Shown: one piece after another, positions 12,512 to 46,206 of the stretch
Layout of the letters: the number at the start of each line of letters is the position of its first letter
Position numbering within the stretch: the stretch's first letter is position 1
NCBI GenBank assembly: GCA_021555075.1
Contig: JAKGBX010000001.1
Coordinates: 1,426,001-1,490,000 of the forward strand
Length of the DNA stretch: 64,000 nt
Direction of reading: 5' to 3'
Source of the DNA: Rhodobacteraceae bacterium LMO-JJ12
GTDB lineage: Bacteria > Pseudomonadota > Alphaproteobacteria > Rhodobacterales > Rhodobacteraceae
Made by a program: the position numbers and the translations under genes
Notes under the pieces: model-generated
The model's input: the letters and a program-made list of their open reading frames with translations, nothing else
What the model was told of the DNA's origin: nothing
The model's database searches: none

Positions 12512-12545
12512 GACATTTCCTTATTCCCGGGGCCCGATAGAGACC

Positions 12546-13937: not shown

Positions 13938-14110
13938 TACGGGTTTTGTTCGGGTTTTTGCTGTTGGCCGGGGTGGCGGGCTGTGGCGCCGATGGTGAAC
14001 CGGTGCAGCCTTCGGTGAATACCTCGGTGAGCGTGGGCACGAATGGTGTTTCGGCAGCGACCGGCGTGGGCTTGCGCAAGGGGCCGTTGAGTATCGGGTT
14101 GGCGCTCTGA
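13934..14110 (+). CDS. Small lipoprotein between argH and lysA
   Basis: This 58-residue protein has an N-terminal signal peptide and lipobox (LLLAGVAGC, Cys at residue 17), so it is predicted to be lipidated and exported. The mature part is short and Gly/Ser/Val-rich without recognisable domains. It overlaps argH by four bases (ATGA). Small lipoproteins at this place are common between argH and lysA in Rhodobacterales and are given only generic names. Its function is unknown. Confidence 0.75.
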
Positions 14111-14144
14111 TCTGAGCCGATGGCGCCGGGGTGGAGGGCAGGAT

Positions 14145-14176
14145 GCCTTCGGCGAGGATATTTTAAGCAAGATGAA
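14145..14176 (+). repeat. Single copy of the dispersed GATATTTT..GCAAGATGAA repeat
   Basis: This 32-base stretch matches 8448-8479 at 28 of 32 positions, counted by eye. It lies in the gap between the small lipoprotein gene and lysA. Unlike the copy at 8.45 kb it has no inverted partner nearby. All copies in the window lie just downstream of coding regions. Confidence 0.65.
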
Positions 14177-14354
14177 GGGCCGGGCGCTTTTCAATATTGG
14201 CGCTATTCGCTAAAGCGTCCGCCGAAATCCTGAAACACAGCTTTTGGCGGGATGCAGCGGAAGATATGAACGTTGCATGCGCCACGCCGCGATCTGATTC
14301 TCGGGTCAAAGCCGTGGCGCTTGATGGGGCTGCGATAGCCAGCAGAGAGGCGCG

Positions 14355-15620: not shown

Positions 15621-15685
15621 CGCGGTGCGCGCGTCGGGGTTTATCCTGAGGTAGTCACACGCCAGATCAACTCGGAGGCACGCCG

Positions 15686-18340
15686 ATCGACGCCAAAGCC
15701 CGCAAATCTGCCCTCAAACGCCTGCGCTGGCCACTTGGACTGACGCGGGCCGGACTGTTGGCCGAACGGATCACGCGCGGTTTTTGGCCGCTGTGGTCGG
15801 TGGGCTTTGTGGTGATTGCGGCGCTGATGCTGGGGCTGCATGAGGTGTTGCCGCTTGGGGCCGTGTGGGCGCTGGGCGCGCTGGCGCTGGGAGCGGTTGT
15901 GTGGTTCGGGGTGCGCGGCCTGCGGTTGTTTCGCTGGCCACGCCAGAGCGAGGCGCTGGCGCGGCTGGATGCGACCATGCCGGGGCGCCCGATAGGGGCC
16001 ATGCTCGACAATCAGGTGATTGGGTTTGATGACCCCGCTTCGCGCGCCGTTTGGGCCGCGCATCAGGCGCAGATGCGCGAACGCGCCGCGGCGGCGAAGC
16101 CGGTGGCGCCCGATCTGCGCATCGCGTCGCGTGACCCTTTCGGGCTGCGATTCATGGCGGTGCTGGCGTTACTGGTGGCGCTGTTGTTCGGTTCGCTCTG
16201 GCGGGTTGCCTCGGTGAGCGAGTTGGGCGTTGGCCTCGGGCCTGCGCAGGCGGCGTCGGGGCCGAGCTGGGAAGGGTGGATCGAACCGCCGGGCTATACC
16301 GGGCTGCCGGTTCTTTACCTCAATGATCTTGCCGAAGGGGCATTGAGCGCGCCTTGGGGGAGTCGCATCACGCTCAGGCTATATGGCAAGCCGGGGGCGA
16401 TTTCAGTGAGCGAAACGGTTTCGAACCGGCCCGACGTTGCCGATAGGTCGGCTGACGGGGCCGGGGTCATGGCGCAGGATTTCACGCTGGAGCGCTCCGG
16501 CACGCTCAGCATTGACGGCGAGGGCGGGCGCAGCTGGGAGGTTGCGGTACTCGCCGATTTGCCGCCCGAGATTGACATTACCGGCGAGGCCGAGGCCAGC
16601 GCGGTGGGGGCCTTTACCATGCCGTTTGTCGCCAGCGACGATTACGAGGTGGTCTCGGGGCGGGCGTTGATTACGCTTGATCTGGAGGCGATTGATCGCC
16701 GCTATGGCTTGGCGCGCGCGCCTGAACAACGCCCGGCGATTGAAGTGAACCTGCCTATGCCAGTGGTGCGCGGGCGTGATGATTTCGAGGAGGTTCTGGT
16801 CGAGGATTTCAGTCAGCATCCATGGGCCAACCTACCGGTGAGCATCACCCTTTTGGCGCGCGATGCGGCGGGTAATGAAGGCGAGAGCCCGGCGCACTCT
16901 CTCAAACTGGCGGCGCGCAAGTTTTTTGATCCGCTGGCCGCGGCGGTGATTGAACAGCGCCGTGATCTTTTGTGGAACCGAGAGAACGCTGCACGGGTCG
17001 CCCAGGTGTTGCGGGCGGTGTCGAACCGCCCCGGCGATGTGTTTCGCAAAGAGACCAGCTATCTTCGGTTGCGCCACACTCTGCGACGGCTGGAGACGGG
17101 TATAACCATCGGGTTGGACGATGCGCGGCGCGATGAGATTGCCCAGTCGCTCTGGGAATTGGCGCTGCAACTGGAAGACGGCACGTTGGCGGATGCGTTG
17201 GAGCGGATGCGGCAGGCGCAGGAGCGTTTGAGCGAGGCGATGAAGAATGGCGCCTCGGACGCCGAGATTGCCCGACTTATGGAAGAATTGCGCGAGGCGA
17301 CGCGCGATTATATGGCGCAGCTTGAGCGCCAGTTTGCCGAGGAAAATCAAGGTGATGGCACCGATCAGCCGGATCAGGGCAAGCGCGACGAGAACATGAC
17401 GGTGATGAACCAGGATGATATCCAGCGCATGATGGATCGCATTCAGGAGTTGATGGAACAGGGCCGCATGGCTGAGGCGCAACAGGCCTTGGACGAGTTC
17501 CAGCAGATGATGGAAAACATGCGCATGGCCGAAGGCCAGGGCGGCAAGGGGCAATCGCCCGGCCAGCAGGCGCTGGAAGGGTTGGGCGACACCCTGCGGG
17601 GGCAGCAGGGGCTGTCGGACCGGGCGTTCCGCGATCTTCAGGAACAGTTCAATCCGAACGCCAATGCGGGAGAAAACCAAGGCAACGAAGGCCGCTCGGG
17701 CGGCCAGGGCCGGGGCCAGAGCCATGAAGGGCAGGGCGATGGACGCGGTCAGGCGCAGGGTGAAGGGGAAGGCCAATCGCCCGGTCAGTCCGAAGGTGAG
17801 GGCCAGCAGCAAGGGGCCGGCGAGGGCGGGGTGCAGCCGTTGGAGCAATCGCTGGCCGAGCGGCAGCGTGCCTTGCGCCGCCAACTCAGCGAGCAGCAAC
17901 GCGGATTGCCGGGGGCGGGCACGCCAGAGGGCGATGCGGCGCGCGAGGCGCTGGATCGCGCCGGACGTGCCATGGACGGCGCCGAGGACGCGCTGCGCCA
18001 AGACGATCTGGCCGAGGCGATCGACAAGCAGGCCGAGGCGATGGAGGCGCTGCGCGACAGTATTCGCAGCCTTGGTGAAGCGTTGGCGCAGGGCGAACAA
18101 GGTACCCCCGGTCAACAGGGCCAGTCGCAAGAGAATTTCGCCGGTGGTGGCGGGCGCCAGTCGGATCCTCTGGGACGTAATCTGAACGGCAGGCCGGGGG
18201 TGGATGACGATATGTTGCAGGGCGAGGATGTCTATCGCCGCGCGCGCGATCTTTTGGATGAGATTCGTCGACGCACGGGCGATCAGAGCCGCCCCGAGCC
18301 TGAGCGCAACTATCTCGAACGGCTGCTTGATCGGTTCTGA
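15686..18340 (+). CDS. TIGR02302 family (DUF4175) large membrane protein, apparent ATC start
   Basis: This is a large protein of unknown function. Two or three N-terminal helices are followed by a beta-rich periplasmic-type region, then a long alpha-helical, Gln/Gly/Glu-rich low-complexity half (about residues 500-860) with many MxxA/Q repeats. Family members begin with a basic stretch equivalent to the KRLRWPLGLTRAGLLAER seen here. That stretch lies upstream of the first conventional start (TTG at 15758), so the real start must be earlier. No ATG, GTG or TTG occurs in frame between the stop at 15647 and 15758. The ATC at 15686 stands seven bases after a GGAGG ribosome-binding site and is my choice, giving 884 residues. 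Confidence 0.8.
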   Translation: MDAKARKSALKRLRWPLGLTRAGLLAERITRGFWPLWSVGFVVIAALMLGLHEVLPLGAVWALGALALGAVVWFGVRGLRLFRWPRQSEALARLDATMPGRPIGAMLDNQVIGFDDPASRAVWAAHQAQMRERAAAAKPVAPDLRIASRDPFGLRFMAVLALLVALLFGSLWRVASVSELGVGLGPAQAASGPSWEGWIEPPGYTGLPVLYLNDLAEGALSAPWGSRITLRLYGKPGAISVSETVSNRPDVADRSADGAGVMAQDFTLERSGTLSIDGEGGRSWEVAVLADLPPEIDITGEAEASAVGAFTMPFVASDDYEVVSGRALITLDLEAIDRRYGLARAPEQRPAIEVNLPMPVVRGRDDFEEVLVEDFSQHPWANLPVSITLLARDAAGNEGESPAHSLKLAARKFFDPLAAAVIEQRRDLLWNRENAARVAQVLRAVSNRPGDVFRKETSYLRLRHTLRRLETGITIGLDDARRDEIAQSLWELALQLEDGTLADALERMRQAQERLSEAMKNGASDAEIARLMEELREATRDYMAQLERQFAEENQGDGTDQPDQGKRDENMTVMNQDDIQRMMDRIQELMEQGRMAEAQQALDEFQQMMENMRMAEGQGGKGQSPGQQALEGLGDTLRGQQGLSDRAFRDLQEQFNPNANAGENQGNEGRSGGQGRGQSHEGQGDGRGQAQGEGEGQSPGQSEGEGQQQGAGEGGVQPLEQSLAERQRALRRQLSEQQRGLPGAGTPEGDAAREALDRAGRAMDGAEDALRQDDLAEAIDKQAEAMEALRDSIRSLGEALAQGEQGTPGQQGQSQENFAGGGGRQSDPLGRNLNGRPGVDDDMLQGEDVYRRARDLLDEIRRRTGDQSRPEPERNYLERLLDRF

Positions 18341-18674: not shown

Positions 18675-21600
18675 ATGAAGCACCTTGGTGATCCCGGAGA
18701 CATTGGCGAAAACGATATTGCAATCATTGGTATGGCGACGCATGTGCCGGGGGCGTCAACGATTGCGCAGTATTGGGAAAACCTGCGCAACGGGGTCGGC
18801 TCGATCCGCCGATTGAGCGAGGAGGAGTTACGCGCTGCCGGGGTGTCCGAGGCGTTGATTGCGCGGCCTGATTATGCTCCCTTTGCCGCACCTCTGGACG
18901 GATTCGAGATGTTTGACGGGGATTTCTTTGGATTCAGCCCCAAGGAAAGCGCCATTCTGGATCCGCAACACCGCCAGTTTCTGGAAGTCGCCTGGGAGGC
19001 GATGGAAAACGCGGGCCATGTGCCGGAAAACACCGACGGGCCGATAGGGGTTTTTGCGGGCTGCGGGATGGGCAGCTATTTCTATTTCAACATCTGCTCA
19101 AACCCCGGTTTGGTGGCTGATACTGGCATGTTCCTGCTGCGCCATACCGGCAATGACAAGGATTTCATGGCGACACGGGTGAGTCATGTATTTGACCTCA
19201 AAGGCCCGTCGATTTCGATGCAGACGGCCTGTTCTACGTCCTTAGTGGCCACGCATTATGCGGCGCAATCGTTGCTCAATGGGGAATGCGACTTTGCGCT
19301 TGCCGGGGGGGTGACAATCGAGTTTCCCCAAGGGCATGGGTATGTCTTCAAGGAAGGTGAAATCCTGTCGCCTGACGGGCAATGTCATGCGTTTGATGCG
19401 CGCGCGGAGGGCACGGTTTTCGGGTCGGGCGCGGGCTGTGTCGTGCTGCGCCGATTGGAAGACGCGATCAGGGATGGCGATCATATCTGGGCGGTGATCA
19501 AGGGCTCGGCGGTGAACAATGATGGTTCGGCCAAGGCCGGATATCTGGCGCCGAGTGTGGACGGGCAGGCGGCGGCGATTGCCGAGGCGCAGGCGATTGC
19601 AGAAGTGTCGGCGGATAGTGTGGATTATGTCGAATGCCACGGAACCGGCACCTATCTGGGCGATCCGATTGAAGTTGCTGCCCTAACCGAAGCATTTCGC
19701 AAGACCACGGATGAGACGGGATTCTGCCGGATTGGCAGCGTGAAAACCAACATCGGGCACCTTGATACGGCGGCCGGGGTGGTGAGCCTGATCAAGGCGA
19801 CGCTGGCCTTGGAGAACAAGGAATTTCCGCCGAGTTTGGGGTATGAGACGCCCAATCCGATGATTGATTTTGAGCATTCACCGTTTGTTGTGAATGACCG
19901 GCTGACACCTTGGGAGCCGCGTAAGGGGGTGCGCCGCGCCGGGGTGAATTCGCTGGGTGTTGGGGGGACCAATGCGCATGTGGTGCTGGAAGAAGCGCCT
20001 GTGCGTCCTGCCAGCGAGGAAAGCGACTGGCCGTTTCAATTGCTGGTGGTGTCGGGGCGCACCAAGGCGGCGCTTGATGCGAATGCCAAGGCGCTGGCGG
20101 CACATTTGCGTGGGTCGGATGAGCCGTTGGCCGATGTGGCATGGACCTTGAAAGAGGGGCGCAGAGCGTTTGAGAAGCGGCGCGTTCTGATTGCAGAGAC
20201 TGCGACGCAAGCGGCTGACTTGCTGGAAGAAAACGATCCGCGAAAGGTGTTTGAACATGCTGTGGTCGGGGATGACCCCGACATGGTGTTCATGTTTCCC
20301 GGAGGTGGTGCGCAATACGCGGGTATGGCGCGCGATCTCTATGAGACGGAACCGGTTTTTGCCGAATGGATGGACAGGGGCTTGGCGGTTTTGCAGCCCT
20401 TGATTGATTTTGACTTGAAGGCGCTTTGGCTGCCCGAACCGGGGCAGGAGGCGGCGGCGGATGAGGTGCTGAAGCGGCCATCGGTGCAATTGCCGCTGAT
20501 CATGATGGTTGAATATGCGCTGGCGCAGCTCTGGATCAACTGGGGTGTGAAACCGGATGTGCTTGTCGGGCATTCGATGGGCGAGAATACGGCGGCCTGT
20601 CTGGCCGGAGTGATGTCGTATGAGGATTGCATCGGTCTGGTGCATCTGCGCGGGACGCTGTTTGATACGGTGCCGGAAGGCGGAATGCTGGCGGTATCGC
20701 TACCCGCTGAGGAATTGCGTGGATGGTTGGGCGACACGCTTGATCTTGCGAGCGTGAACGGGCCGGGGTTGAGCGTGGCATCGGGGCCGCAGGCGGCGCT
20801 GGAGGATCTGCAAAAGCGGCTTGAGGCTGCGGATATTGATTGCCAGCGTGTCGCCATCGACATTGCGGCACATAGCAGGATGCTGGAGCCGATCTTGGGG
20901 CGGTTTGGTGATTACCTGCGTGGAATTGAGCTAAAAGCTCCGCAGATACCGATCGTGTCGAACCGCACGGGCGAGGTTTTGAGTGATGTTGACGCGATGG
21001 ACCCGGAGTATTGGGTGCGCCATCTGCGTGGCACCGTGTTGTTTGCCGATTGCATCAACCATCTGAGCCAGCAGACGTCGCGGATTTACGTTGAAATGGG
21101 GCCGGGGCGCGCGCTGAGTTCGCTGGCGGCGCAACATGCGGATGTGGCGCGGGGGCAGGTGATTTCCGCGCTGCGTCACCCGGCGGATGATGTTGCGGAT
21201 GATGCCTGGTTCATTGCGCAGTTGGGCCGGGTCTGGGCCATGGGGGGCGGGTTTGACTGGAGCCAGATCTGGGGCGCGGCGCGGCGCAATCGGGTTGTTT
21301 TGCCGACCTATGCGTTTCAGCGAAAACCCTATTTCATCGAACCCGGAGAGAACCGGCAAGCGGAGGAGCCAAGCCATCTGATGCGTCAGCCCGCGTTGGA
21401 GGATTGGGGTTACGCGCCGCATTGGAAAGCGGTGGCTGCCGATTGTGATGTTGATATCGAGACGCTGGAAGGGGCCACCCAAGAACGCTGGCTGGTGTTT
21501 GTAGATGATACCGGGTTGGGGCGCAGTGTTGTCGAGCGGTTGCGTGCGGCGGGGCAGGATGTGGTTACGGTGCGCGCCGGTGATGCCTTTGGTCGCGATG

Positions 21601-24600
21601 GTGAGGGCGGTTTTGTGCTGTCGCCCGAGCGGGGCCGCGAAGGGTATGATCTTCTGGTTGAGAAGTTAGCGGCAAGGGATTGGTATCCCACGAAAATCGC
21701 GCATTTCTGGCTGGTTACGAAAGGCGAGGGGCATCGGCCCGGATCGTCGTTTTTCCATCGCAATCAGGAACAGGGGTTTTATGCGCTGATGTTTCTGGCG
21801 CAGGCGATCGGTGAGGCGGATTGGCCCGCGCTTCATATTGACGTTTTGACCAGCGGGGCGGCGCAAGTGAAGGGCGAGGCCTTGGCCTATCCCGAAAAGA
21901 TGACAGTGCGCGGGCCGGTCAAGGTTATCCCGAAGGAATTGCCGGGGGTGACCTGTTCGACGCTTGATCTGGAATTGCCGACGGGCAAGCGCGCGGATTT
22001 GGGCGAGATCACTGGGCAGGTGCTTGAAGAGCTGTTTGCTGTGCCAGGCAACCGGGTTGCGGCGCTGCGCGGGGCGCGGCGATATGAACAGCAGTTCCGC
22101 GCCATGGCGCTTGAAAGCGACGCGCAGGATACGCATTTGCGCGACAAGGGCGTTTACCTGATTACCGGCGGGTTTGGTGGCATCGGGCTGACGTTGGCCG
22201 AGCGGTTGATCCGTGACCATGAGGCGCGCGTTGTGTTGATGGCGCGCTCGGCGCTTCCGCCGCGTGATGACTGGGCCAGTTGGGTGCTTCGCCACGGCAG
22301 CCATGACGCCACATCCCAGCGGATTGCAGCCGTAAAGCGGCTGGAGTCGCTGGGCGGGCAGGTGATGGTCACGGTGGCCGATGTGTCGAATGTCGAGGAA
22401 ATGCGCGGTGCGATGGAACAGGTGCATATGCGCTTTGGACCGGTCAACGGCGTCATCCACGCCGCCGGCGTGATTGCGGATGAACCGCTTTTGACCAAGA
22501 GCCCGAGCACGGTTGAGGATGTTTTTACGCCCAAGATTCATGGCGTTCAGGTGCTTGATGAAATCTTCGATGATGGTGAGTTGGATTTCCTCGTGCTGTT
22601 TTCGTCAACCTCGACGGTGACGGGGCCAGCGGGGCAGATCGACTATGTTGCGGCCAACGAATACCTCAATGGCTATGCCAAGGCCCGCGCGGGCGGCAAG
22701 ACCCGCGTTCTGGCGCTGAACTGGGGCATTTGGGCCGAGGTGGGCATGGCAGCCGAGGCCTTGGGCGTCTCAAAGGCCGAGCCGGACCAAAGCGAAACCC
22801 CGGTGGCGCAACCGCTGTTGGGTGTGGCGGGGTTTGATCGGCAGGGCAACCGGATGTTCCGGCGTGAATTGAGCGTGAAAGATTGGATTGTGGGCGAGCA
22901 TCGCACCAAGGACAACAAGGCGTTGATGCCCGGCACCGGCTATCTTGAGATTGCCGCGCAAGCCATGGAAGCGCAGGGCGAAACCGGCGGGTTTGAAATT
23001 CGTGATCTCTATTTCCTGCGGCCTTATGATGTGGCCGAACACGACACGCGCGAGATGCGCGTGACGCTGGAACGCAACGAATTGGGCTATGATCTCAGCG
23101 TGATGGGCGCGCGCGAAGTTGCGGGGCGCAAGGGGTTTGAGACCAATGCGCAGGCGGTGTTGTCGCTTTTGCCGCTGGGTGCAGCGGGGCAATTGGACTT
23201 GTCGGCGCTGGAGGCGCGGTGCGCGCGGGTGGAAACGGCAGCGGCGGGGCGTTCGCTGCGTTCACCCCAGGAGGCGCATCTGAATTTCGGGGCGCATTGG
23301 CGGGTGTTGCGCCGATTGGCGTTTGGCGACGGCGAAGGCGTTGCGCATCTGCGTTTGGCCGATGGGCTGGATGAGGCGGGGTATCACTTGCATCCCGGTT
23401 TGCTCGATCTCGCGACCGGTTGGGCGATGGGGTTGATTGACGGGTATGAGGCGGACCATCTTTGGGTGCCGGTGTCTTATGGGGCGGTGCGCGTCTATCG
23501 TGATCTGCCCGGCGAGGTGGTGTCTTGGGTGCGCAATGCGGGCGACAACCGCGCCGAGGCGGGCGCGGCGAATTTTGACGTCACGATCTGCGATAGCCAA
23601 GGCAATATCTGTGTTGAAGTGCATAATTTCTCGATCCGGCGGATGGAGCCTGGGGTGGCGCTGATTGCTGCGCCCAAAGCTTCGGAATTGATCTATCCCG
23701 ATGCGGATGCGAACCGCCCGCTATCTCCTGCCGAGGAGCGGTTGCGCCATAACCTGTCACAAGGGATTAGGCCCGATGAGGGGGCGGAGGCGTTCGTTCG
23801 TGCCCTGGCGATGGGGCAGAGCCAGGTGGTGGTTTCGTCGCTTTCGCTGGATGATCTGGTGCGTCAGGCCGAGGTGGAAAGCAGCGTGAAAGAGGAGGGG
23901 CAGACTTTTCAGCGGCCTGATCTGGAGAATGAATTTGTCGCGCCGGAAGGGGCGGTTGAAGAGAAGCTGGCGCAATTCTGGGGCGGGCTTCTGGGGGTCG
24001 AGCAGATTGGGGCAGAGGATAACTTCTTTGATCTCGGCGGGCATTCTCTGATCGCTGTGCGGCTTTTTGCGATGGTCAAAAAAGAATGGGCCGTGGAGTT
24101 TCCGATCTCGGTATTGTTTGAGGCGCCCACGATTCGGGCGTGTGCAAAAATGATTGTAGCAGAGGGTGTTAGCGACGAAACTTCGAGCGATACATCCGAA
24201 GAAAGGCGCAAGCCGCCGGAACGGCGATTTACCCATCTGGTGGCGATGCATCAGGGCGAAGGCGGGGCGCGACGCCCGTTCTTTCTCGTTGCGGGGATGT
24301 TCGGCAATGTACTGAACCTGCGTCATCTGGCGCATCTGTTGGGGGCGAACAGGCCGTTTTATGGGTTGCAGGCCAAGGGGTTGCTTGGCGAAGATGAACC
24401 GCATCGCGACATTGCGCAGGCCGCAAGTGATTACCTGAAAGAGATGCGACAGGTGCAGCCCAAGGGCCCCTATATGTTGGGCGGTTTTTCGGGTGGCGGG
24501 ATCATCGCCTATGAGATTGCCCAGCAATTGAAGGCGGCGGGCGACGAGGTGGCGATGTTGGTGATGCTTGATACGCCATTGCCGCAGCGCCGGTCATTGT

Positions 24601-25106
24601 CGCGACGGGACCGGCTGGCGATTCAAGCGCAGGAGTTGAAGGCGGGTGGGTTGCAGTATCCGTTTAAATGGGCCGCGCGCAGGGTTGCCTGGGAGTTCGA
24701 GAAACGCCGCAAGAGGGATGTGCAGCCGGTTGAGAACGCCGAGGTTTCTTTCCACAACACGACGATAGAGCAGGCATTCCTGGAGGCGGTTGCGGCGTAT
24801 GATTTGCGCTCGTGGGATGGTGCGCTGACGCTGTTCCGTCCGCCCTTGCAGGGCAAATGGGAAGTGGCGCCGGGGCGCTGGGTCAATTCGGAGCGTGCCT
24901 ATGTCACGCCCGACAATGACTGGACAGCCCATGCTCCCTTGATCGAGGTGATCGAAGTGCCCGGAGACCACGACAGTATGGTTCTGGAGCCCAATGTGCG
25001 GGTTTTGGCGGCCCGCATGAAACGGTGCATTGAAGACGCGGAGAATCCGGGCGCGCGCGCGGGGCGCGTGGCGGCCTTGCCGGTGCACTCAAAGGCGGCG
25101 GGGTGA
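18675..25106 (+). CDS. Type I modular polyketide synthase, KS-AT-KR-DH-ACP-TE
   Basis: This 2143-residue single-module synthase has these domains in order. Ketosynthase (about 14-430) has active Cys186 (TACSTS) and histidines near 322 (HGTGT) and 362 (NIGH). Acyltransferase has Ser634 (GHSMGE). Then come a ketoreductase structural half and a catalytic half, with the NADPH loop TGGFGGIG at about 1164 and Tyr1324. Dehydratase has His1409 and Asp1578 (HPGLLD). The acyl carrier has Ser1791 (GGHSL), and a C-terminal thioesterase has Ser1939 (GFSGG) and His2099. All catalytic residues I looked for are present. The dehydratase follows the ketoreductase instead of preceding it, and its histidine motif has one extra residue. 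The AT specificity motif reads IAAH, so the extender unit is not clear. The gene overlaps the next by four bases. Confidence 0.95.
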   Translation: MKHLGDPGDIGENDIAIIGMATHVPGASTIAQYWENLRNGVGSIRRLSEEELRAAGVSEALIARPDYAPFAAPLDGFEMFDGDFFGFSPKESAILDPQHRQFLEVAWEAMENAGHVPENTDGPIGVFAGCGMGSYFYFNICSNPGLVADTGMFLLRHTGNDKDFMATRVSHVFDLKGPSISMQTACSTSLVATHYAAQSLLNGECDFALAGGVTIEFPQGHGYVFKEGEILSPDGQCHAFDARAEGTVFGSGAGCVVLRRLEDAIRDGDHIWAVIKGSAVNNDGSAKAGYLAPSVDGQAAAIAEAQAIAEVSADSVDYVECHGTGTYLGDPIEVAALTEAFRKTTDETGFCRIGSVKTNIGHLDTAAGVVSLIKATLALENKEFPPSLGYETPNPMIDFEHSPFVVNDRLTPWEPRKGVRRAGVNSLGVGGTNAHVVLEEAPVRPASEESDWPFQLLVVSGRTKAALDANAKALAAHLRGSDEPLADVAWTLKEGRRAFEKRRVLIAETATQAADLLEENDPRKVFEHAVVGDDPDMVFMFPGGGAQYAGMARDLYETEPVFAEWMDRGLAVLQPLIDFDLKALWLPEPGQEAAADEVLKRPSVQLPLIMMVEYALAQLWINWGVKPDVLVGHSMGENTAACLAGVMSYEDCIGLVHLRGTLFDTVPEGGMLAVSLPAEELRGWLGDTLDLASVNGPGLSVASGPQAALEDLQKRLEAADIDCQRVAIDIAAHSRMLEPILGRFGDYLRGIELKAPQIPIVSNRTGEVLSDVDAMDPEYWVRHLRGTVLFADCINHLSQQTSRIYVEMGPGRALSSLAAQHADVARGQVISALRHPADDVADDAWFIAQLGRVWAMGGGFDWSQIWGAARRNRVVLPTYAFQRKPYFIEPGENRQAEEPSHLMRQPALEDWGYAPHWKAVAADCDVDIETLEGATQERWLVFVDDTGLGRSVVERLRAAGQDVVTVRAGDAFGRDGEGGFVLSPERGREGYDLLVEKLAARDWYPTKIAHFWLVTKGEGHRPGSSFFHRNQEQGFYALMFLAQAIGEADWPALHIDVLTSGAAQVKGEALAYPEKMTVRGPVKVIPKELPGVTCSTLDLELPTGKRADLGEITGQVLEELFAVPGNRVAALRGARRYEQQFRAMALESDAQDTHLRDKGVYLITGGFGGIGLTLAERLIRDHEARVVLMARSALPPRDDWASWVLRHGSHDATSQRIAAVKRLESLGGQVMVTVADVSNVEEMRGAMEQVHMRFGPVNGVIHAAGVIADEPLLTKSPSTVEDVFTPKIHGVQVLDEIFDDGELDFLVLFSSTSTVTGPAGQIDYVAANEYLNGYAKARAGGKTRVLALNWGIWAEVGMAAEALGVSKAEPDQSETPVAQPLLGVAGFDRQGNRMFRRELSVKDWIVGEHRTKDNKALMPGTGYLEIAAQAMEAQGETGGFEIRDLYFLRPYDVAEHDTREMRVTLERNELGYDLSVMGAREVAGRKGFETNAQAVLSLLPLGAAGQLDLSALEARCARVETAAAGRSLRSPQEAHLNFGAHWRVLRRLAFGDGEGVAHLRLADGLDEAGYHLHPGLLDLATGWAMGLIDGYEADHLWVPVSYGAVRVYRDLPGEVVSWVRNAGDNRAEAGAANFDVTICDSQGNICVEVHNFSIRRMEPGVALIAAPKASELIYPDADANRPLSPAEERLRHNLSQGIRPDEGAEAFVRALAMGQSQVVVSSLSLDDLVRQAEVESSVKEEGQTFQRPDLENEFVAPEGAVEEKLAQFWGGLLGVEQIGAEDNFFDLGGHSLIAVRLFAMVKKEWAVEFPISVLFEAPTIRACAKMIVAEGVSDETSSDTSEERRKPPERRFTHLVAMHQGEGGARRPFFLVAGMFGNVLNLRHLAHLLGANRPFYGLQAKGLLGEDEPHRDIAQAASDYLKEMRQVQPKGPYMLGGFSGGGIIAYEIAQQLKAAGDEVAMLVMLDTPLPQRRSLSRRDRLAIQAQELKAGGLQYPFKWAARRVAWEFEKRRKRDVQPVENAEVSFHNTTIEQAFLEAVAAYDLRSWDGALTLFRPPLQGKWEVAPGRWVNSERAYVTPDNDWTAHAPLIEVIEVPGDHDSMVLEPNVRVLAARMKRCIEDAENPGARAGRVAALPVHSKAAG

Positions 25107-26116
25107 ACAATATGGCGCAAGTCCTGGTGATTATCCTCAATTACAAAACAGCCGAGATGACTTTGGCCGCTGCCGAGGCCGCAATGCGTGAAATGTCTGA
25201 TATTGATGGTGAAATTTTGATCATCGACAATGACAGCGGCGATGGTTCGTTTGAAACTTTGCAGGCGGGGGTCGCACAAAAGGGTTGGGACATACGCGTG
25301 CTGCAATCGGGACAGAATGGCGGATTTGGGGCGGGCAACAATTTTGGCATGCGCGCGGGGATGCGCGATGGGACGGTGCCAGAGTATTATTATATCCTGA
25401 ATTCCGATGCGTTTCCCGATCGCGGAGCGATCCGGGCGCTGGTCGAGCATCTGGAGGGTAACCCGGAGGTCGGGTTTGCCGGGAGCTATATTCACGGCCC
25501 CGAGCGTGATGCGCATGTGACGGCGTTTCGCTTTCCCTCGATAGCCAGCGAGTTTGAGGGCGCGGCAAGGTTTGGACCGGTGACGCGGATGCTGGCCGAT
25601 CATATGGTGCCGCTGCCGGTTCCAAAGGAAACGACGGCCGTGGATTGGCTGGCCGGGGCGAGCCTGATGATGCGGGCCGAGGTGCTTGACGAAATTGGCC
25701 AGTTTGATGAGGCGTTTTTCCTCTATTATGAGGAAACCGATCTGTGCCGTCGCGCCGCCAAGGCCGGGTGGGCGACGCATTATGTGCGTGAGAGCGAAAT
25801 CACCCATATCGGGTCGGTCTCGACGGGGATGAAGGATTGGACGCGGGTGCCAGAGTATTGGTTTGATTCGCGCTGGCATTATTTTTCGAAAAATCATGGG
25901 GTTGCCTATGCTTGCGCTGCCACGCTGGCGCATTTGGCCGGGGGGGTGATTCACCGGTTGCGGGTGCTTTTGCAAGGCAAGGATCGGGGCGATCCTCCGG
26001 GGTTCTTACGCCACCTTCTGTGGCATGATCTGCGCGCGCTTTTCAGACCTGTGAGGGGGGCTGTGAAAGACAACGAAAACACGCTGAAGCTGGGCGTGCT
26101 TGGGGAAAGGACTTAA
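25103..26116 (+). CDS. Glycosyltransferase family 2 in the PKS/NRPS operon
   Basis: This 337-residue GT-A fold enzyme transfers a sugar from a nucleotide donor. It has the GT2 N-terminus (VLVIILNYKTAEMTL), the IIDNDSGDGS nucleotide-binding segment, NSDAFPD in place of a classical DXD, and the acceptor-side motif EETDLCRRA, resembling rhamnosyltransferase-type enzymes. The GTG at 25103 overlaps the PKS stop (GTGA); an ATG nine bases later is the alternative. Being inside the operon, with the NRPS starting four bases after it, it most likely glycosylates the PKS/NRPS product. No sugar-donor synthesis gene is in this operon, although the saccharide locus is next door. Confidence 0.88.
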   Translation: MNNMAQVLVIILNYKTAEMTLAAAEAAMREMSDIDGEILIIDNDSGDGSFETLQAGVAQKGWDIRVLQSGQNGGFGAGNNFGMRAGMRDGTVPEYYYILNSDAFPDRGAIRALVEHLEGNPEVGFAGSYIHGPERDAHVTAFRFPSIASEFEGAARFGPVTRMLADHMVPLPVPKETTAVDWLAGASLMMRAEVLDEIGQFDEAFFLYYEETDLCRRAAKAGWATHYVRESEITHIGSVSTGMKDWTRVPEYWFDSRWHYFSKNHGVAYACAATLAHLAGGVIHRLRVLLQGKDRGDPPGFLRHLLWHDLRALFRPVRGAVKDNENTLKLGVLGERT

Positions 26117-26119
26117 CCT

Positions 26120-29100
26120 ATGACTGCTCAATCCTATGTCGTGATCGGCAATGAAAGTCTTGCCGTTCAATGTAGTGAAAAACTGCTGGAACGGGGCGGG
26201 AGGCTTGGCGCGATTGTGACGCGCAACGCCGATGTCGCGGCATGGGCAGAGGGTCGGGGGGTGATGGTTGTTGCCCCGGGAGAGGGGCTGGCCGAGCGGC
26301 TTGAGGGCGTGGCGCATGATTGGTTGTTGTCGATTGCCAATCTCGACATGCTGCCCGAGGCGGTTTTGGCGTTGCCCCGACGTGGGGCGGTGAATTTTCA
26401 TGACGGGCCTTTGCCGGCCTATGCGGGGCTGAATGCGCCGGTTTGGGCGATGTTGGCGGGGGAAACCCGCCATGGCATCACCTGGCATATGATAGAGGCC
26501 GGTGCGGATACCGGCGCGATTGTTGCGCGTGCCGGGTTTGACATCACGTCTGATGATACGGCGTTGACGTTGAACACCAAGGCCTATGAGGCCGGAATCG
26601 GATCGTTTGAGGAGGTGCTCGACAAGCTGTCGATGGCAGAGGTTCCGGTTGAGGCGCAGCCCGCAAGCGGGCGCAGCTACTATGGCAAGGCCAAGCGGCC
26701 AAGTGGGGCCGGACGTTTGGATTTTACCGGCGCGGCGTCGGATGTGGTGCGCGTGGTGCGTGCGCTGGATCACGGACCATATTGGAATCCGCTGTCGGTG
26801 GCGAAAATCGAGGTTGATGGCCGGGTTCTAGCCGTCGGCCATGCGGCGGAGGAGGAGCCTTTGGGCGAGGCCGCGCCGGGCACGGTGGTTAGTGTCGATG
26901 ATCAGGCCATTCGCGTGGCCTGTGGGCAGGGCACGGTGATGTTGTCGGACATAACGGCGCTTTGCGGTGGCGAGATTGTTTTGGCGGCTTTGCTGGCGCC
27001 TGGGGATGTGCTTGCGCCGCCGGATGGCGCGGAGCGTGCGATGCTTGATGCGGCAATGACAGAGGCCGCGAAGGGCGATGCGCATTGGCGGGCGCGGTTG
27101 CGCGAGTTGGTTCCGGCTGAGTTGCCGGGGGCGGCGGGCGAAACAGGGGAAACGCGCGAAATCACGCTTGATCTGGGGGGGGGCGGAGAGTCAGCGCTCA
27201 GACTGGCAACGGGGCTTGTGGCGGCTTTGGCAGAGACTGGCGTTGCGGATCTGGCCTTTGGTGGCGGGCAGGCAACTGCGCCGGGTTATGCGAGTTCCTG
27301 GGTGCCGGTGCGCTTTGGTGACGATCTGAGCATTGCGCGCAAATGGCCCAGTTTTGCGCTTGATATTCAATCGCGCGACCCGGAAATCGGGCGTGTCGAG
27401 ATGCCCATGATCGGGATTTCCGAGGGCAGTATGGTTGAGGGGACAGCGATAACCTTCACACCCGAGCGGCTTTATTATGATGCGGGGAAAGTCAGCGATG
27501 ATCTGGCGGCGCTTTGGGCGCGGCGGTTGGAGCATCTGAGCCGGGTTGAGGGGGTTGAAGATATGGCCCCCGCCGAGATGCCGGTGATGCCCGAAAGCGA
27601 ACGCAAGTTGGTTGTGGAAGATTGGAACGCGACGGTGGTGGCGTTTGATGCGGATTTGTGCGTGCATCAGGCGTTTGAACGGCAAGTTCTGGAGACACCA
27701 GATGCGGAAGCCTTGGTGTTTGAGGGCGAAAGCCTGAGCTACGCAGCACTCAATGCGCGAGCCAACAAAGTGGCGCATGTGTTGCGCGACATGGGGGTGC
27801 AACCCGGAACTCTGGTGGCGCTGGCGAGTGAGCGGAGTTTGAACCTTTTGATCGGGGCGCTGGGGATTTTGAAGGCGGGGGGGGCTTATGTGCCGCTGGA
27901 CCCGGGTTATCCGGCGGATCGGCTTGCGCTTTATCTTGAGGACAGCGCCGCACCTGTGGTTGTGACCACAAGCACGGTGGCGGGTGATCTGCCGACGAGC
28001 ACGGCTGCGCAACTGGTGCTGGATCGCGATGCGCGGATTGAGGCGGCATCGGAGGAGAACTGTGATAGCGGGGTGGCCGGGAGTGATCTGGCCTATCTGA
28101 TCTATACCTCCGGTTCGACCGGTAAGCCCAAGGGTGTGATGGTGGAGCATCGCAACGTGGCGAATTTCTTTGCCGGGATGGATGAGCGCATACCGCTTGA
28201 AGAAGATTCTGTCTGGCTGGCGGTGACGAGCCTTAGCTTTGATATTTCGGTGCTGGAGCTTTTCTGGACGCTGGCAAGGGGTTTTAAGCTGGTGCTGAGC
28301 GGCGATGAGAGCCGTTCATTGGTAAGCAACGGGCGGATCGCCATGACCGGAAAGGGCATGGATATCGGGCTGTTTTACTGGGGCAATGACGATGGGCCGG
28401 GCAAGCAGAAATATCATATGTTGCTTGAGGGCGCGAAATTTGCCGACGCGCATGGGTTTTCTGCGGTCTGGACGCCCGAGCGGCATTTTGCGGCCTTTGG
28501 CGGGCCGTATCCAAACCCGGCGGTGACCGGTGCCGCCGTGGCGGCGGTAACAAAGAATATCGCAGTGCGCTCGGGGTCGGTTGTGGCGCCGCTGCACCAT
28601 CCGCTCAGGATTGCCGAGGATTGGTCGGTGATCGACAATCTGACCAACGGGCGCGCGGGGCTGGGGATTGCCAGCGGCTGGCAGCCGGATGATTTCGTGC
28701 TGCGCCCGGAGAATGCGCCGCCCAACAACAAGGTGGCGATGTTTGACACGATCGAGAAGATCCGCGCGCTGTGGCGGGGCGAGACGGTGGAATTTCCCAA
28801 CGGTGCGGGTAAGGATTGTGCGACGCTGACGCAACCGCGGCCCGTATCAAAGGAATTGCCGATCTGGCTGACCATTGCGGGCAACCCGGACACTTGGCGC
28901 GAGGCGGGTGAGATCGGCGCCAATGTGCTGACGCATTTGTTGGGCCAGTCGATTGACGAGGTGGCCGGCAAGATCAAGATCTATCATCAGGCGCTGCGCG
29001 ACAATGGTTACGACCCTGAGGATTTCAACGTCACGCTGATGCTGCACACTTATGTCGCCGAAACCCGCGAGAAGGCGCGTGACGTGGCACGCGGGCCGAT

Positions 29101-30655
29101 GAAGGAATACCTGACTGCGGCAGCGGTTCTGATCAAGCAATATGCCTGGACCTTCCCGGCCTTCAAGCGGCCCAAGGGGGTGGATAACCCGTTTGAGCTG
29201 GATCTGGAGGTTTTGACCGAGGAGGATATGGAAGGCATTCTGGAGTTCGCTTTCCAGCGCTATTTCGAGGATAGCGGGTTGTTTGGCACGGTTGAGGATT
29301 GTCTTGACCGGGTGGAGCAGCTCAAGCGGATCGGGGTGAGCGAGATAGGCTGTCTGATCGACTATGGCATCGCGCCTGAATTGGTCTTGGAGGGTCTGAA
29401 ACCGCTGGCCGAGGTACATCGGCGCGCCAATGAGGCGGTGGGCGTGGCGGAGGATGATTTCTCGATTGCGGCGCAAATCGTGCGCCACGGTGTGACGCAC
29501 CTGCAATGCACGCCCAGCCTTGCGCGGATGATCGCCATGAACGACGAGGCGCGCATGGCGCTGGGCCGGGTGAAGCATCTGATGATTGGCGGCGAGGCCT
29601 TGCCGGGAAGTCTGGTGGGTGAGTTCGGCGAGATCACCGATGCGACGATTGAGAACATGTATGGGCCGACCGAGACCACGATTTGGTCGACGACGGAACG
29701 CGCCGCGTTGGGCGAGTGTGTGGTCAATATTGGCAAGCCCATTGCCAATACGCAGGTCTATGTTCTGGACGCCGCCGGTGCGCCGTGCCCTGTTGGTGTC
29801 GCGGGGGAGCTTTTCATCGGCGGGGCAGGTGTGACGCGTGGCTATTGGCAGCGTGACGGGCTGACGGCAGAGCAATTTGTCGACAACCCGTTCCATGGCC
29901 AGCGGATGTATCGCACAGGTGATCTTGTGCGCTGGCGCGCGGATGGCAAGCTCGATTTCCTTGGGCGGGCGGATCATCAGGTCAAGCTGCGCGGGTATCG
30001 TATCGAATTGGGTGAAATCGAGAGCCGGTTGGAGGAACAGCCGGGCGTGCGTCAGGCTGTTGTGTTGGCGCGCGAGGATACGCCCGGTGATATGCGACTG
30101 GTCGCTTATGTGTTGGCCGAAAGTCGGTTTGACGAGGCGGGGGTGAAGAAAGCCTTGGCCGTGAACTTGCCAGACTTCATGATCCCCAGCCAATTCGTGC
30201 GGCTTGATGCATTTCCGCTGACTCCGAACAAGAAGGTCGACAGAAAAATGCTGCCCGCACCAGCGCAGGTGATGGCGCCAGTGCAGGCGTCAGAAGTCAA
30301 GCTGCATGAGGCGGGTTCGGTCGAGGCCAAGATTTCTGCGGTGTGGAACCATGTGCTTGGGGTTGAGCGGATCGGAGCGAAAGACAGCTTCTTTGATCTG
30401 GGCGGGCATTCGCTCTTGGCGGTGCAGGCGCATCGCGAAATCCGCGAACTCTGTGGGGTGCCGAAACTGGCGATCACGGATATTTTCCGCTTTCCCAAGC
30501 TCTCGGCGCTGGCGCAGCGCGTGCGCGAGTTGAGCGATGGAGGGGAAACACCGAACCCGAAACCCGCAAAAATGCCGGAAACCGAGGCCACGCAGAGCGA
30601 TACCGTGTCGCGGCGGCGTGAGATGCGCGCAAAACGGCGCATGGCGAAGACCTGA
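26120..30655 (+). CDS. NRPS: formyltransferase, condensation remnant, adenylation domain split by luciferase-like monooxygenase, PCP
   Basis: This 1511-residue synthetase starts with a methionyl-tRNA-formyltransferase-like domain (about 1-300) with the catalytic triad Asn92, His94 (NFH) and Asp130 (GADTG). Residues about 345-500 look like only the C-terminal part of a condensation domain. The adenylation domain starts at about 515 (A3 motif YTSGSTGKPKG near 660, A4 FDISVLELF near 706). It is interrupted at about 745-1100 by a flavin-dependent luciferase-like monooxygenase, then resumes (YGPTETT near 1180; YRTGDLVRW; NKKVDRKMLP). The carrier domain has Ser1431 (GGHSL). The layout matches the MupA/Atu3671-type monooxygenase family. 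The pocket residues I read (D-I-L-Q-M-G-M-I-W) resemble codes listed for glycine. No thioesterase is present, so release probably depends on the PKS. Confidence 0.93.
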   Translation: MTAQSYVVIGNESLAVQCSEKLLERGGRLGAIVTRNADVAAWAEGRGVMVVAPGEGLAERLEGVAHDWLLSIANLDMLPEAVLALPRRGAVNFHDGPLPAYAGLNAPVWAMLAGETRHGITWHMIEAGADTGAIVARAGFDITSDDTALTLNTKAYEAGIGSFEEVLDKLSMAEVPVEAQPASGRSYYGKAKRPSGAGRLDFTGAASDVVRVVRALDHGPYWNPLSVAKIEVDGRVLAVGHAAEEEPLGEAAPGTVVSVDDQAIRVACGQGTVMLSDITALCGGEIVLAALLAPGDVLAPPDGAERAMLDAAMTEAAKGDAHWRARLRELVPAELPGAAGETGETREITLDLGGGGESALRLATGLVAALAETGVADLAFGGGQATAPGYASSWVPVRFGDDLSIARKWPSFALDIQSRDPEIGRVEMPMIGISEGSMVEGTAITFTPERLYYDAGKVSDDLAALWARRLEHLSRVEGVEDMAPAEMPVMPESERKLVVEDWNATVVAFDADLCVHQAFERQVLETPDAEALVFEGESLSYAALNARANKVAHVLRDMGVQPGTLVALASERSLNLLIGALGILKAGGAYVPLDPGYPADRLALYLEDSAAPVVVTTSTVAGDLPTSTAAQLVLDRDARIEAASEENCDSGVAGSDLAYLIYTSGSTGKPKGVMVEHRNVANFFAGMDERIPLEEDSVWLAVTSLSFDISVLELFWTLARGFKLVLSGDESRSLVSNGRIAMTGKGMDIGLFYWGNDDGPGKQKYHMLLEGAKFADAHGFSAVWTPERHFAAFGGPYPNPAVTGAAVAAVTKNIAVRSGSVVAPLHHPLRIAEDWSVIDNLTNGRAGLGIASGWQPDDFVLRPENAPPNNKVAMFDTIEKIRALWRGETVEFPNGAGKDCATLTQPRPVSKELPIWLTIAGNPDTWREAGEIGANVLTHLLGQSIDEVAGKIKIYHQALRDNGYDPEDFNVTLMLHTYVAETREKARDVARGPMKEYLTAAAVLIKQYAWTFPAFKRPKGVDNPFELDLEVLTEEDMEGILEFAFQRYFEDSGLFGTVEDCLDRVEQLKRIGVSEIGCLIDYGIAPELVLEGLKPLAEVHRRANEAVGVAEDDFSIAAQIVRHGVTHLQCTPSLARMIAMNDEARMALGRVKHLMIGGEALPGSLVGEFGEITDATIENMYGPTETTIWSTTERAALGECVVNIGKPIANTQVYVLDAAGAPCPVGVAGELFIGGAGVTRGYWQRDGLTAEQFVDNPFHGQRMYRTGDLVRWRADGKLDFLGRADHQVKLRGYRIELGEIESRLEEQPGVRQAVVLAREDTPGDMRLVAYVLAESRFDEAGVKKALAVNLPDFMIPSQFVRLDAFPLTPNKKVDRKMLPAPAQVMAPVQASEVKLHEAGSVEAKISAVWNHVLGVERIGAKDSFFDLGGHSLLAVQAHREIRELCGVPKLAITDIFRFPKLSALAQRVRELSDGGETPNPKPAKMPETEATQSDTVSRRREMRAKRRMAKT

Positions 30656-30663
30656 GCGGCGCG

Positions 30664-31338
30664 GTGGAAAGACAGCAGAACGCGGGGTTGGAAACCGCGT
30701 TCAGGGCGATTTTGCCTGCGGGCATCGCCCTTGCGGTGGAGGGACTGGAACCGCCTCTGAAAGAGGGGGATGTGTTTGCAGCCGAAGCGGCGGCGATGGC
30801 GCGCGCGGTTCCCAAGCGGCGGGCAGAGTTTTTTGCGGGTCGGGTTGCGGCGCACCGCGCGATGCGGGCGCTGGGGCATTCACCTGGGCCGGTGACAATG
30901 GGCGAGGATCGTGCGCCGGTCTGGCCCGCCGGGCTGGTCGGTTCGATTTCGCATTGCAGTGATACCTGCGTCGCTTTGGTGGCCGAAGCGGCGCGATATC
31001 GCGCCGTGGCGGTGGATATTGAACCCGATACCGACCTGCCCGACGATGTGATCGACACGATCTGCTTACCATCCGAGCGGATGAACCTGCCAAAACAGGG
31101 CTGGGGCCGGATGGCGCGGCTTATCTTCTCGGCCAAGGAAACGGTTTATAAACTGCAATATCCGATAGCCAGAAAAATGTTGGAATTCAGCGATGTAGAG
31201 GTCGTTGTAGATGTTGTGAACGGCAAGTTTGAGGCACGTGTCTGTGTTCCGCTGGGGCCGGATTTTTCGGCGCAGGGGTTTGCGGGGCATTTCGGGCGTG
31301 CGGAAGGTAAAGTATTCTGCGTGATGTTTAGTCTGTAA
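30664..31338 (+). CDS. 4'-phosphopantetheinyl transferase (EntD/Sfp type)
   Basis: The enzyme moves the phosphopantetheine arm of coenzyme A onto the carrier serines of the PKS and NRPS. The 224-residue protein has the EntD-type motifs in order: RAEFFAGRVAAHRAM, PVWPAGLVGSISHC, the magnesium-binding VDIE, and LIFSAKETVYK. The start is a GTG nine bases after the NRPS stop codon. As the last gene of the four-gene operon it makes the pathway self-sufficient for carrier activation. The likely targets are Ser1791 of the PKS and Ser1431 of the NRPS. Confidence 0.93.
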   Translation: MERQQNAGLETAFRAILPAGIALAVEGLEPPLKEGDVFAAEAAAMARAVPKRRAEFFAGRVAAHRAMRALGHSPGPVTMGEDRAPVWPAGLVGSISHCSDTCVALVAEAARYRAVAVDIEPDTDLPDDVIDTICLPSERMNLPKQGWGRMARLIFSAKETVYKLQYPIARKMLEFSDVEVVVDVVNGKFEARVCVPLGPDFSAQGFAGHFGRAEGKVFCVMFSL

Positions 31339-31590: not shown

Positions 31591-32904
31591 ATGGGCCAGA
31601 TTCAATCGGTTGGAGATTTCCTGAACATGATGCGGCGACGCATCGTGCTGATCTTGGCCGTGATCATTCTTGGCAGCGCCTTCTCGATCTGGTGGACACT
31701 TGGGCAGCCCCGGATTTATGAGGCGACGGCCGTTGCACAGATCGAAAGCCCCACAGTCGCAGACCCGGCAGCGAGCGGCGCGGTAACCGCGAACCCCGCC
31801 GACCACAGATTGCGAATCCTCGAACAGAAGCTGATGGCGCGTGACAATCTCACGGCCATGGTGGAGCGTTACGGTCTCTACCAAGATACTGATTTTTCGG
31901 CGGGCCTGAAGGTGGCGATGCTGCGGGAATCCGTGCGCATTACCCAGATTACGGACCCGAATGCAGGGTGGGGTGCGCAGCGTGTGCCAACGGGCATGAT
32001 GATCACGGTCAACCATGGTTCGCCTGAAACTGCGGCGGCGATGGCAAATGATTTTCTGGAACAACTGGTTAATCTCAACCGTCAGAGACGGTCCTCGGCG
32101 ACGCTTCAGAATCTTGAGTTCTTCAAGGGGGAAGCCGCCAGGGTCGAGGCGGAAATGGCCGCGCTGGAGGCCCGGATTGCCGAGTTCAAGGAGAAGAATG
32201 CGCTCTATCTTCCGGAAGGAGTTGCGGCGCAGCGGGCTGAATTGGGCACCTTGAGAACAGCGCTTCTGGACATCGAACAGAAACTGATTGAGCTGGATGC
32301 GAGCCGAACCCGACAACGCGCCGAGGTGATTGAACGCCAAAGCACCCTGTTGCGCGAGCAGCAAGCCCTGATCCAGTCGAGAATTAACGAGATCAATGGA
32401 GCGATAGACAGTGCGCCCGAAGTGGAGCGACAGTTTGGTATCCTGACGCGTCAGCTCGACCAGTTGAAAGAACAGTTTACCATCATAACGCGCAGTGCCA
32501 CCGAAGCCGAGATGGGCCAGCTTTTGACGAGCCAGGACCAGTTCGAGCGCATCGAGGTGCTTGAAAGCGCGCTTGTGCCGGAAAACCCGGTGTCGGGGTC
32601 GCGCAAGAAGAAGGTGGTTCTGGGCGCATTCCTGAGCGGGGTTCTGGGGGTCGGTCTGGCGTTTGTTCTGGAGACGTTGAACCCGGTGATCCGCACGCCC
32701 GCACAATTGGAACGTCAGCTTAACGTCAAGGCTGTTGTGGCCATTCCCAAATTGACCGTGCCCGGAGAACGCCGTCGAAAACGGATCTTGTGGTTGACGA
32801 TTCTGGCGGGGCTTCTGGCGCTTTTGTGGAGTTTCGCGGGTGTGGTGAAAGAGGCGGTGAGCGGTCTGGTGAATATGCTCTCAAGCCTGCAAAGCAAGGC
32901 GTGA
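31591..32904 (+). CDS. Wzz/GumC-like polysaccharide chain-length (co-polymerase) protein
   Basis: This 437-residue inner-membrane polysaccharide co-polymerase has one N-terminal helix (about residues 16-36) and a long periplasmic, mostly coiled-coil part (about 150-290). Two C-terminal helices (about 345-365 and 395-415) flank the segment NPVIRTPAQLERQLNVKAV. In ExoP/Wzc proteins that segment leads into the fused tyrosine kinase; here the kinase is absent and is encoded by the convergent gene at 32963-34144. Such proteins set chain length or gate export of capsule, exopolysaccharide or O-antigen. Confidence 0.88.
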   Translation: MGQIQSVGDFLNMMRRRIVLILAVIILGSAFSIWWTLGQPRIYEATAVAQIESPTVADPAASGAVTANPADHRLRILEQKLMARDNLTAMVERYGLYQDTDFSAGLKVAMLRESVRITQITDPNAGWGAQRVPTGMMITVNHGSPETAAAMANDFLEQLVNLNRQRRSSATLQNLEFFKGEAARVEAEMAALEARIAEFKEKNALYLPEGVAAQRAELGTLRTALLDIEQKLIELDASRTRQRAEVIERQSTLLREQQALIQSRINEINGAIDSAPEVERQFGILTRQLDQLKEQFTIITRSATEAEMGQLLTSQDQFERIEVLESALVPENPVSGSRKKKVVLGAFLSGVLGVGLAFVLETLNPVIRTPAQLERQLNVKAVVAIPKLTVPGERRRKRILWLTILAGLLALLWSFAGVVKEAVSGLVNMLSSLQSKA

Positions 32905-34144: not shown

Positions 34145-34362
34145 GGCTGCGCACATTGGGCAAACCCAATAAATCACGGTTGGCGGAGATGTTGCGTCTG
34201 CCCGTCACGTTCAAATCCATTGTCCTTGCTCACCCGAAGGAGGTCTTTTCGCAATATTAGCGTTTGCCTGCCTGAAGGGCAAAGTGCCTGTTATCCCGCG
34301 AGAATATACAGAAAACTTGGGCCAAATTATGCCTGAACTGCGCGATTTGGTCTCTGTCATGT

Positions 34363-46091: not shown

Positions 46092-46206
46092 TCCGGTTGT
46101 CGTGTATTGTCAGGGTGTTTTAATGACGTAATTGGGCGAAACTTTCACCACTTCATTGCGAATTTGCGGCGAAGGTTTCAGGCTGTTGGCATATAAGGGG
46201 GGCAGT

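Follow-up and report, generated by a model that had tools for sequence, protein, structure and literature searches.

The closest described counterpart of the genes analysed here is a roseobacter cluster reported in 2015 (PMC4337385, citing Martens et al.), in which genes for a nonribosomal peptide synthetase (NRPS), a polyketide synthase (PKS), a glycosyltransferase (GT) and a phosphopantetheinyl transferase (PPTase) occur together in 28 of 57 roseobacter genomes; its product was uncharacterised, and that paper asks for it. Hybrid clusters have also been described in Rhodobacterales (PMC10584327, PMC8273931), and the PKS Inhi_1972 and NRPS Inhi_1974 of PMC4062626 lie two locus tags apart. The subject of this analysis is a block of four genes (positions 18675-31338) in a stretch of 64,000 nucleotides, hereafter the window, from contig JAKGBX010000001.1 (positions 1,426,001 to 1,490,000) of Rhodobacteraceae bacterium LMO-JJ12. 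The block holds the same four gene types and is likewise widespread in roseobacters, which bears out the preliminary description of a roseobacter-type cluster without a known product; this likeness is one of description rather than sequence, and the passages of PMC4337385 that treat the cluster name neither a polysaccharide context nor domain chemistry. The word "exopolysaccharide" is not in the main text of PMC10584327 or PMC8273931, and a link of the roseobacter cluster to exopolysaccharide (EPS) was not found in the open-access literature. The four-gene cluster itself, its product then unknown, is already published. We consider it likely that these genes form a sub-pathway dedicated to EPS, and the block probably builds a chemical part of a cell-surface polysaccharide rather than a free drug-like molecule.

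The linkage to EPS genes is seen first in phylogenetic profiles. Among 390 Rhodobacterales genomes, the NRPS is present at E<=1e-100 in 160 (~41%), which belong to 65 of 140 genera. Downstream of the block lies a gene for a Wzz-like polysaccharide chain-length determinant (31591-32904, forward strand), which matches Pfam Wzz with 21.5 bits (cut-off 25.5) and NCBIfam TIGR03007 with 112 bits (E 2e-32, below cut-off). At E<=1e-30 this protein occurs in 130 of the 390 genomes, that is, in 130 of the 160 NRPS-positive and 0 of the 230 NRPS-negative ones (Fisher p 1e-74), and its gene is within 20 kb of the NRPS gene in 116 of 124 compared pairs (124 of the 130 genomes), making it apparently a dedicated partner. 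The Wzx flippase of the window's genome (E<=1e-60) is found in 144/160 NRPS-positive versus 23/230 NRPS-negative genomes. The BY-kinase was rejected as a specific partner because it is too widespread (147/160 versus 81/230). Exosortases are often tied to EPS loci and lie near some of the loci studied here; this candidate partner was also rejected, since the exosortase family PF09721 is absent from the window's genome and shows no association over the 390 genomes (54/160 versus 93/230, p=0.2). In this respect the locus is unlike exosortase-associated EPS loci, although the best NCBIfam matches of its EPS neighbours are XrtA-system proteins, below cut-off. It resembles Wzx/Wzz/BY-kinase EPS loci, with flippase, chain-length, kinase and transferase families nearby.

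The flanks of the block point the same way. Forty NRPS-positive genomes had a contig long enough to include a control region; in 30 of them, 10 kb on each side of the block was compared with a 20 kb control lying 130-150 kb lower on the same contig, using 28 marker proteins at 1e-8 whose EPS functions come from Pfam and NCBI names. At least two EPS markers are present in 29/30 flanks and in 0/30 controls, with means of 6.4 and 0.03 markers. Individually, Wzx is found in 26 flanks versus 0 controls, Wzz in 28 versus 0, the BY-kinase in 20 versus 0 and WecG in 22 versus 0; the sugar transferase marker is in 14/30 versus 1/30. Thirty NRPS-positive genomes have no strict Wzz match; three of them (G111, G359, G377) are in the flank test, 20 were examined separately and seven were left out. 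Nineteen of those 20 carry at least two EPS markers and 12 a Wzz marker, with four of the flanks shortened by contig ends, two to less than 2 kb. The block is therefore embedded in an EPS locus, and its Wzz-like neighbour is never found without the NRPS in the 390 genomes, so that the "small self-contained factory" of the preliminary description is not borne out; of the glycosylated metabolite proposed there, the GT is indeed present, but because of this embedding a glycan carrying a short ketide/amino-acid unit appears more likely than a free glycosylated metabolite.

The EPS context extends beyond the sampled genomes of the order. Eight of ten Hydrogenophaga-type betaproteobacterial loci have at least two EPS markers (at 1e-6, with the block's own GT excluded and no control region). 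The NRPS has relatives in 29 plasmid records, eight of which were inspected, and NCBI annotation of six of these records (four from Rhodobacterales, two rhizobial) places polysaccharide genes near the block. A Rhizobium grahamii record (L099), which carries no annotation, was left out. On the Aminobacter and Shinella plasmids EPS genes surround the block in a different gene order, with the PKS divergently transcribed.

The block itself consists of four open reading frames (ORFs) on the forward strand whose content, order and junctions of -4, +3 and +8 bases agree with the preliminary description when ORF coordinates and Pfam matches are used. The first encodes a type I PKS of one module (18675-25106, 2143 aa) with the Pfam order KS-AT-KR-DH-ACP-TE, in which the DH unusually follows the KR. 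It is followed by genes for a GT2 glycosyltransferase with a GT-A fold (25103-26116, 337 aa), a loading NRPS identified by Pfam and NCBIfam (26120-30655, 1511 aa) and a PPTase with 4PPT_N and ACPS domains by Pfam (30664-31338, 224 aa). The NRPS begins with the N and C parts of a formyltransferase (FT, residues ~60-280), followed by ~200 residues without a family match, the N part of an adenylation (A) domain (~519-730), an LLM flavin monooxygenase (~750-1100), the C part of the A domain and a carrier. By eye the ~200 residues looked like the tail of a condensation domain, a reading that was dropped because no search supported it. No condensation domain (PF00668) was found in the NRPS protein, or at E<=1e-3 anywhere in the window's genome, so no peptide bond is expected, and the "NRPS" is a loading module, not a peptide maker. 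All the same, the components of a hybrid line are here: A, carrier, KS and AT domains are all present, their motifs are intact and their genes are closely spaced.

The interruption of the A domain is seen in Pfam as a Bac_luciferase domain within AMP-binding, and NCBIfam assigns the inserted domain to TIGR04020 (MupA/Atu3671 family, FMN-dependent monooxygenase) with 471.6 bits against a cut-off of 244.45. The insertion lies between A4 (FDISVLELF, residue 707) and A5 (NMYGPTE, residue 1179), presumably the same site as in myxothiazol-type modules; A domains interrupted by a flavin monooxygenase are known as the MtaG/MelG type. The LLM domain also matches the crystal structure of the PuwE monooxygenase (6ket, E 1e-101); unlike PuwE, which is situated between PKS and NRPS modules (PMC4219810), the monooxygenase here interrupts the A domain of a loading module. 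Linear gramicidin synthetase LgrA likewise has an N-terminal FT followed by A and carrier domains, but it makes a peptide via condensation domains, whereas here there are none and the A domain is split by the flavin domain. In a PDB sequence search LgrA chains come first for both A-domain parts by whole-sequence score, which sums two A domains; by single stretches, the C part of the A domain scores 336 bits with 8xjz_C, 298 with 5u89_A and 267 with LgrA module 2.

Relatives (70 PKS, 90 GT, 91 NRPS and 82 PPTase rows) show hardly any variation in the catalytic motifs of KS, AT, KR, DH, carrier, TE, FT, A, flavin domain, GT and PPTase; those of the PPTase vary most outside their His, Asp, Glu and Lys positions. 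In the FT, the residues that we take to be catalytic (Asn and His in VNFHDGPLP, Asp in AGADTG) are 100% conserved in the 91 rows, and nine of the ten positions of the adenylation code DILQ[MFLY]GMIWK are identical in 90/91 rows, the other row having an X. Given these nearly invariant residues, a single product class is likely. The one departure concerns the DH motif, whose conserved Gly (67/70 PKS rows) is replaced by Asn in three rows, those of the window and of its two nearest relatives, L013 and L014, so that dehydration may be weak there; otherwise the intact catalytic sites and the activity predicted from them in the preliminary description are upheld at the level of motifs. Decay in close relatives was also looked for: among the matches listed, four NRPS relatives (G158, G197, G288, G337) have one internal stop each and the others none, and general decay of the block is not seen. 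The AlphaFold model of the GT2 enzyme (pLDDT 90.6) has GalNAc-transferases and the fucosyltransferase WrtF among its best 50 Foldseek matches. A PDB sequence search with the single GT gave no match, and one with a GT profile gave three weak GT2 matches.

The four genes are inherited together. The best 80 of 226 loci include members from Salipiger, Ruegeria (including a Ruegeria pomeroyi strain, L076), Shimia, Thalassovita and, outside the order, Hydrogenophaga, with plasmid-borne relatives in Aminobacter, Shinella, Paracoccus and Rhizobium. The order PKS-GT-NRPS is kept in 77/80 loci, the exceptions being L043 and L089 (short contigs) and L054 (rearranged), and a PPTase match is missing in 9/80; in four of these nine (L028, L050, L084, L089) the contig stops at, near or soon after the NRPS gene. 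Over 64 loci the four proteins give concordant pairwise distances (Mantel r 0.59-0.93), the agreement being closest for PKS and NRPS (r=0.93). In the tree the eight betaproteobacterial rows group in one clade whose neighbour is a single Rhodobacterales row, an Amylibacter metagenome-assembled genome (MAG; L042), near the base of the ingroup, a placement that points to transfer of the block as a whole between classes. A Rhodobacterales-type block, with 57% identity, is also held by a record titled as an Exiguobacterium profundum MAG (L083), which is probably mislabelled. A 42% relative in Aliiroseovarius (L100) was set aside as not the same block, another large NRPS/PKS gene following there; its annotation has no flippase, Wzz or glycosyltransferase, and an exosortase and a VPLPA-CTERM protein are present. 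In six Hydrogenophaga loci (L015, L017, L019, L025, L085, L092) an extra large protein, ~2000 aa where complete, adjoins the block. The scanned piece of that from L015, the only one of the six scanned, has AMP-binding, carrier and condensation domains, and the product of these six loci may therefore be longer than elsewhere.

It is proposed, with the chemistry deduced from the domains and the link to a glycan from gene context, that the PPTase arms both carriers, after which the NRPS would load glycine, the inserted flavin domain oxidise it and the FT cap it. As there is no condensation domain, the carrier-bound unit would pass straight to the PKS, which would add one malonyl-derived C2 unit that the KR reduces and, where it works, the DH dehydrates. 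The TE could then free or transfer a short acyl chain, approximately 4-formamido-butenoyl or hydroxylated forms of it, and the GT2 enzyme would couple this acyl unit to a sugar or build its acceptor sugar. The product would join an EPS repeat, to be flipped and polymerised with Wzx, the Wzz-like protein and the BY-kinase, and SGNH/AT3 acyl-transfer proteins at some loci may place this or other acyl groups. The dlt system for D-alanylation of teichoic acids, in which adenylation and a carrier decorate a surface polymer and an SGNH-like protein belongs to the pathway, offers an analogy, since adenylation and a carrier would here too serve decoration of a cell-surface polymer; it differs in having no PKS, FT or monooxygenase and in its Gram-positive polymer, and no MBOAT protein is among the annotated neighbours here. 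A bolder extension, which we hold as doubtful though possible, is that Rhodobacterales commonly make a class of polysaccharide in whose repeat unit a ketide/amino-acid block is obligatory, a glycan-polyketide hybrid with its own chain-length determinant; such a polymer would explain why the Wzz-like gene is never found without the assembly line.

A variant compatible with an EPS role is that the FT-A-carrier protein formylates or aminoacylates an amino sugar while the PKS chain is made independently, giving two decorations and not the output of one line. The FT has its better matches in fMet-tRNA FT and ArnA, ahead of the gramicidin FT, and the divergent transcription of the PKS in Aminobacter and Shinella would suit separate functions. 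However, the FT is fused to A and carrier domains as in gramicidin initiation, the co-inheritance of PKS and NRPS is close, and a carrier-bound unit without a condensation domain needs another acceptor, such as the KS; we therefore regard this variant as unlikely. Less probable still is a free, secreted, glycosylated short amino-acid/ketide metabolite whose EPS neighbours merely share a genomic island. A release domain (TE), GT and PPTase of its own would equip the block for this, hybrid clusters in Rhodobacterales are classed as secondary metabolism where they are treated in PMC8273931 and PMC10584327, export genes lie near some relatives (a TolC family member next to the PKS in Aminobacter, HlyD and type I secretion genes in Shinella), and a further large gene adjoins the block in the six Hydrogenophaga loci, NRPS-type in the one scanned. 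Against it speak the EPS genes in 29 of 30 flanks and in none of the 30 controls, a chain-length-determinant-like gene that the 390 genomes never show without the NRPS, and the EPS genes that also surround the different gene order in rhizobia. That the product is a signal or metallophore regulating or accompanying biofilm EPS is very improbable: TIGR04020 bears the name Atu3671, which presumably belongs to an Agrobacterium siderophore locus, but no siderophore receptor or regulator is among the Pfam-named conserved neighbour families (several families are unnamed), and a dedicated Wzz would be superfluous for a free signal.

Several points weigh against the EPS sub-pathway that we favour. The linkage could reflect one mobile island instead of one pathway, and the markers were chosen from block neighbourhoods, so that the flank test is partly circular and favours them. 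The single Wzy marker and the single export marker were found in 0/30 flanks; the export marker is in 2/20 further flanks, and the window's genome encodes export proteins in other places. The genomes of the profile are not independent, and the Wzz co-occurrence comes from one query, taken from the window, whose name derives from matches below curated cut-offs. Wzx is not exclusive to NRPS-positive genomes, and the BY-kinase is common in NRPS-negative ones. Two of the ten betaproteobacterial loci give no signal, L054 having no marker and L085 one. In the window's genome the Wzx (79% identical to the block-side Wzx of Aquicoccus, L013) lies on contig C3, ~11 kb from a sugar transferase that is 59% identical to its Ruegeria conchae counterpart; both are off the block's contig, and the EPS pathway of this genome therefore looks split. 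The assignment of the adenylation code to glycine is putative. Finally, the FT is nearer in sequence to fMet-tRNA FT and ArnA than to gramicidin FT and may therefore act on an (amino) sugar.

The genes that follow the block in the window are largely of polysaccharide type, and counts of their families over the 79 loci with flanking ORFs are lower bounds, since only long non-overlapping ORFs were kept and many loci are short. Beyond the Wzz-like gene follow, on the reverse strand, genes for a CpsD/BY-kinase-like protein of polysaccharide synthesis (32963-34177; CbiA in Pfam; TIGR03018, E 6e-23, below cut-off), a Gfo/Idh/MocA oxidoreductase fused to a sugar epimerase (34363-36453), a GT2 (36469-37446; family in 36/79 loci), a GT4 with EpsE as best NCBIfam match, below cut-off (37443-38684; 44/79), an NAD-dependent epimerase named from the domain scan (38681-39634; counted in one family with the fused protein, 32/79) and a second Gfo/Idh/MocA oxidoreductase (39625-40740; 12/79). 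A WecG/TagA/CpsF glycosyltransferase, whose family is the WecG marker of the flank test, is encoded on the forward strand (40878-41732). On the reverse strand again, an SDR and GMC-type oxidoreductase pair (41774-44094) is kept in only 3-4/79 loci and also adjoins the block in records from Ruegeria conchae (L097) and Paracoccus (L096), and an AT3-SGNH membrane acyltransferase of the glycan acylation type (44091-46091) has its family in only 4/79. On a Ruegeria plasmid (L093), an FAD oxidoreductase and an SDR occur together with UbiA and GtrA proteins, a set that in our view resembles DprE/UbiA decaprenyl-arabinose chemistry. A Wzx flippase is near the block in 46/79 loci. A family of ~500 aa with ~9 predicted membrane segments, present in 18/79 loci (e.g. 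L040, 20145-21647) and without a Pfam match in the two members scanned, is a candidate Wzy polymerase.

An SGNH-type protein is encoded next after the PPTase in 12 loci, and also in two plasmid records; its N terminus carries a hydrophobic segment, and its GHS and DxxH motifs are invariant. Its model (pLDDT 85.8) gives weak structure matches (E 5e-4 to 1e-2) to SGNH-type enzymes, including a GDSL-like lipase, a sialate O-acetylesterase, the peptidoglycan O-acetyltransferase PatB and, from a Salmonella LPS acetyltransferase, the periplasmic domain (6se1). A family search in the window found no such gene, the AT3-SGNH protein being there instead. An apparent neighbour family of 41 loci proved to be a mixture of different proteins, of which only this one was followed.

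Upstream of the block (12510-18340) the window has an argininosuccinate-lyase-type gene, a pyridoxal phosphate (PLP) decarboxylase and a DUF4175 protein, where Aquicoccus L013 has Wzx and a GT2; the locus has been rearranged in the window's genome. A second sugar transferase and export gene pair lies on contig C1 of this genome, near 340 kb. Directly after the EPS genes (46132-52785) come genes of phenylacetate catabolism (PaaA, PaaC-like, PaaD, reductase), an enoyl-CoA hydratase and a 3-oxoadipyl-CoA thiolase, and a cytochrome P450 gene (57274-58512) is placed between those for a PLP enzyme and a transglycosylase.

According to a review, no more than three NRPS products with a formyl group from an F-domain had been described (PMC8949500), and if the FT of the block works as such a domain, the trait would be far more widespread than the products treated there. 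If the block is part of an EPS pathway, the place to look for the compound would be the capsule or biofilm polymer, and a search aimed at a free metabolite would be examining the wrong fraction. PKS and NRPS enzymes would then serve polysaccharide chemistry in ~41% of the sampled Rhodobacterales genomes (160/390), with likely consequences for biofilms and surface attachment.

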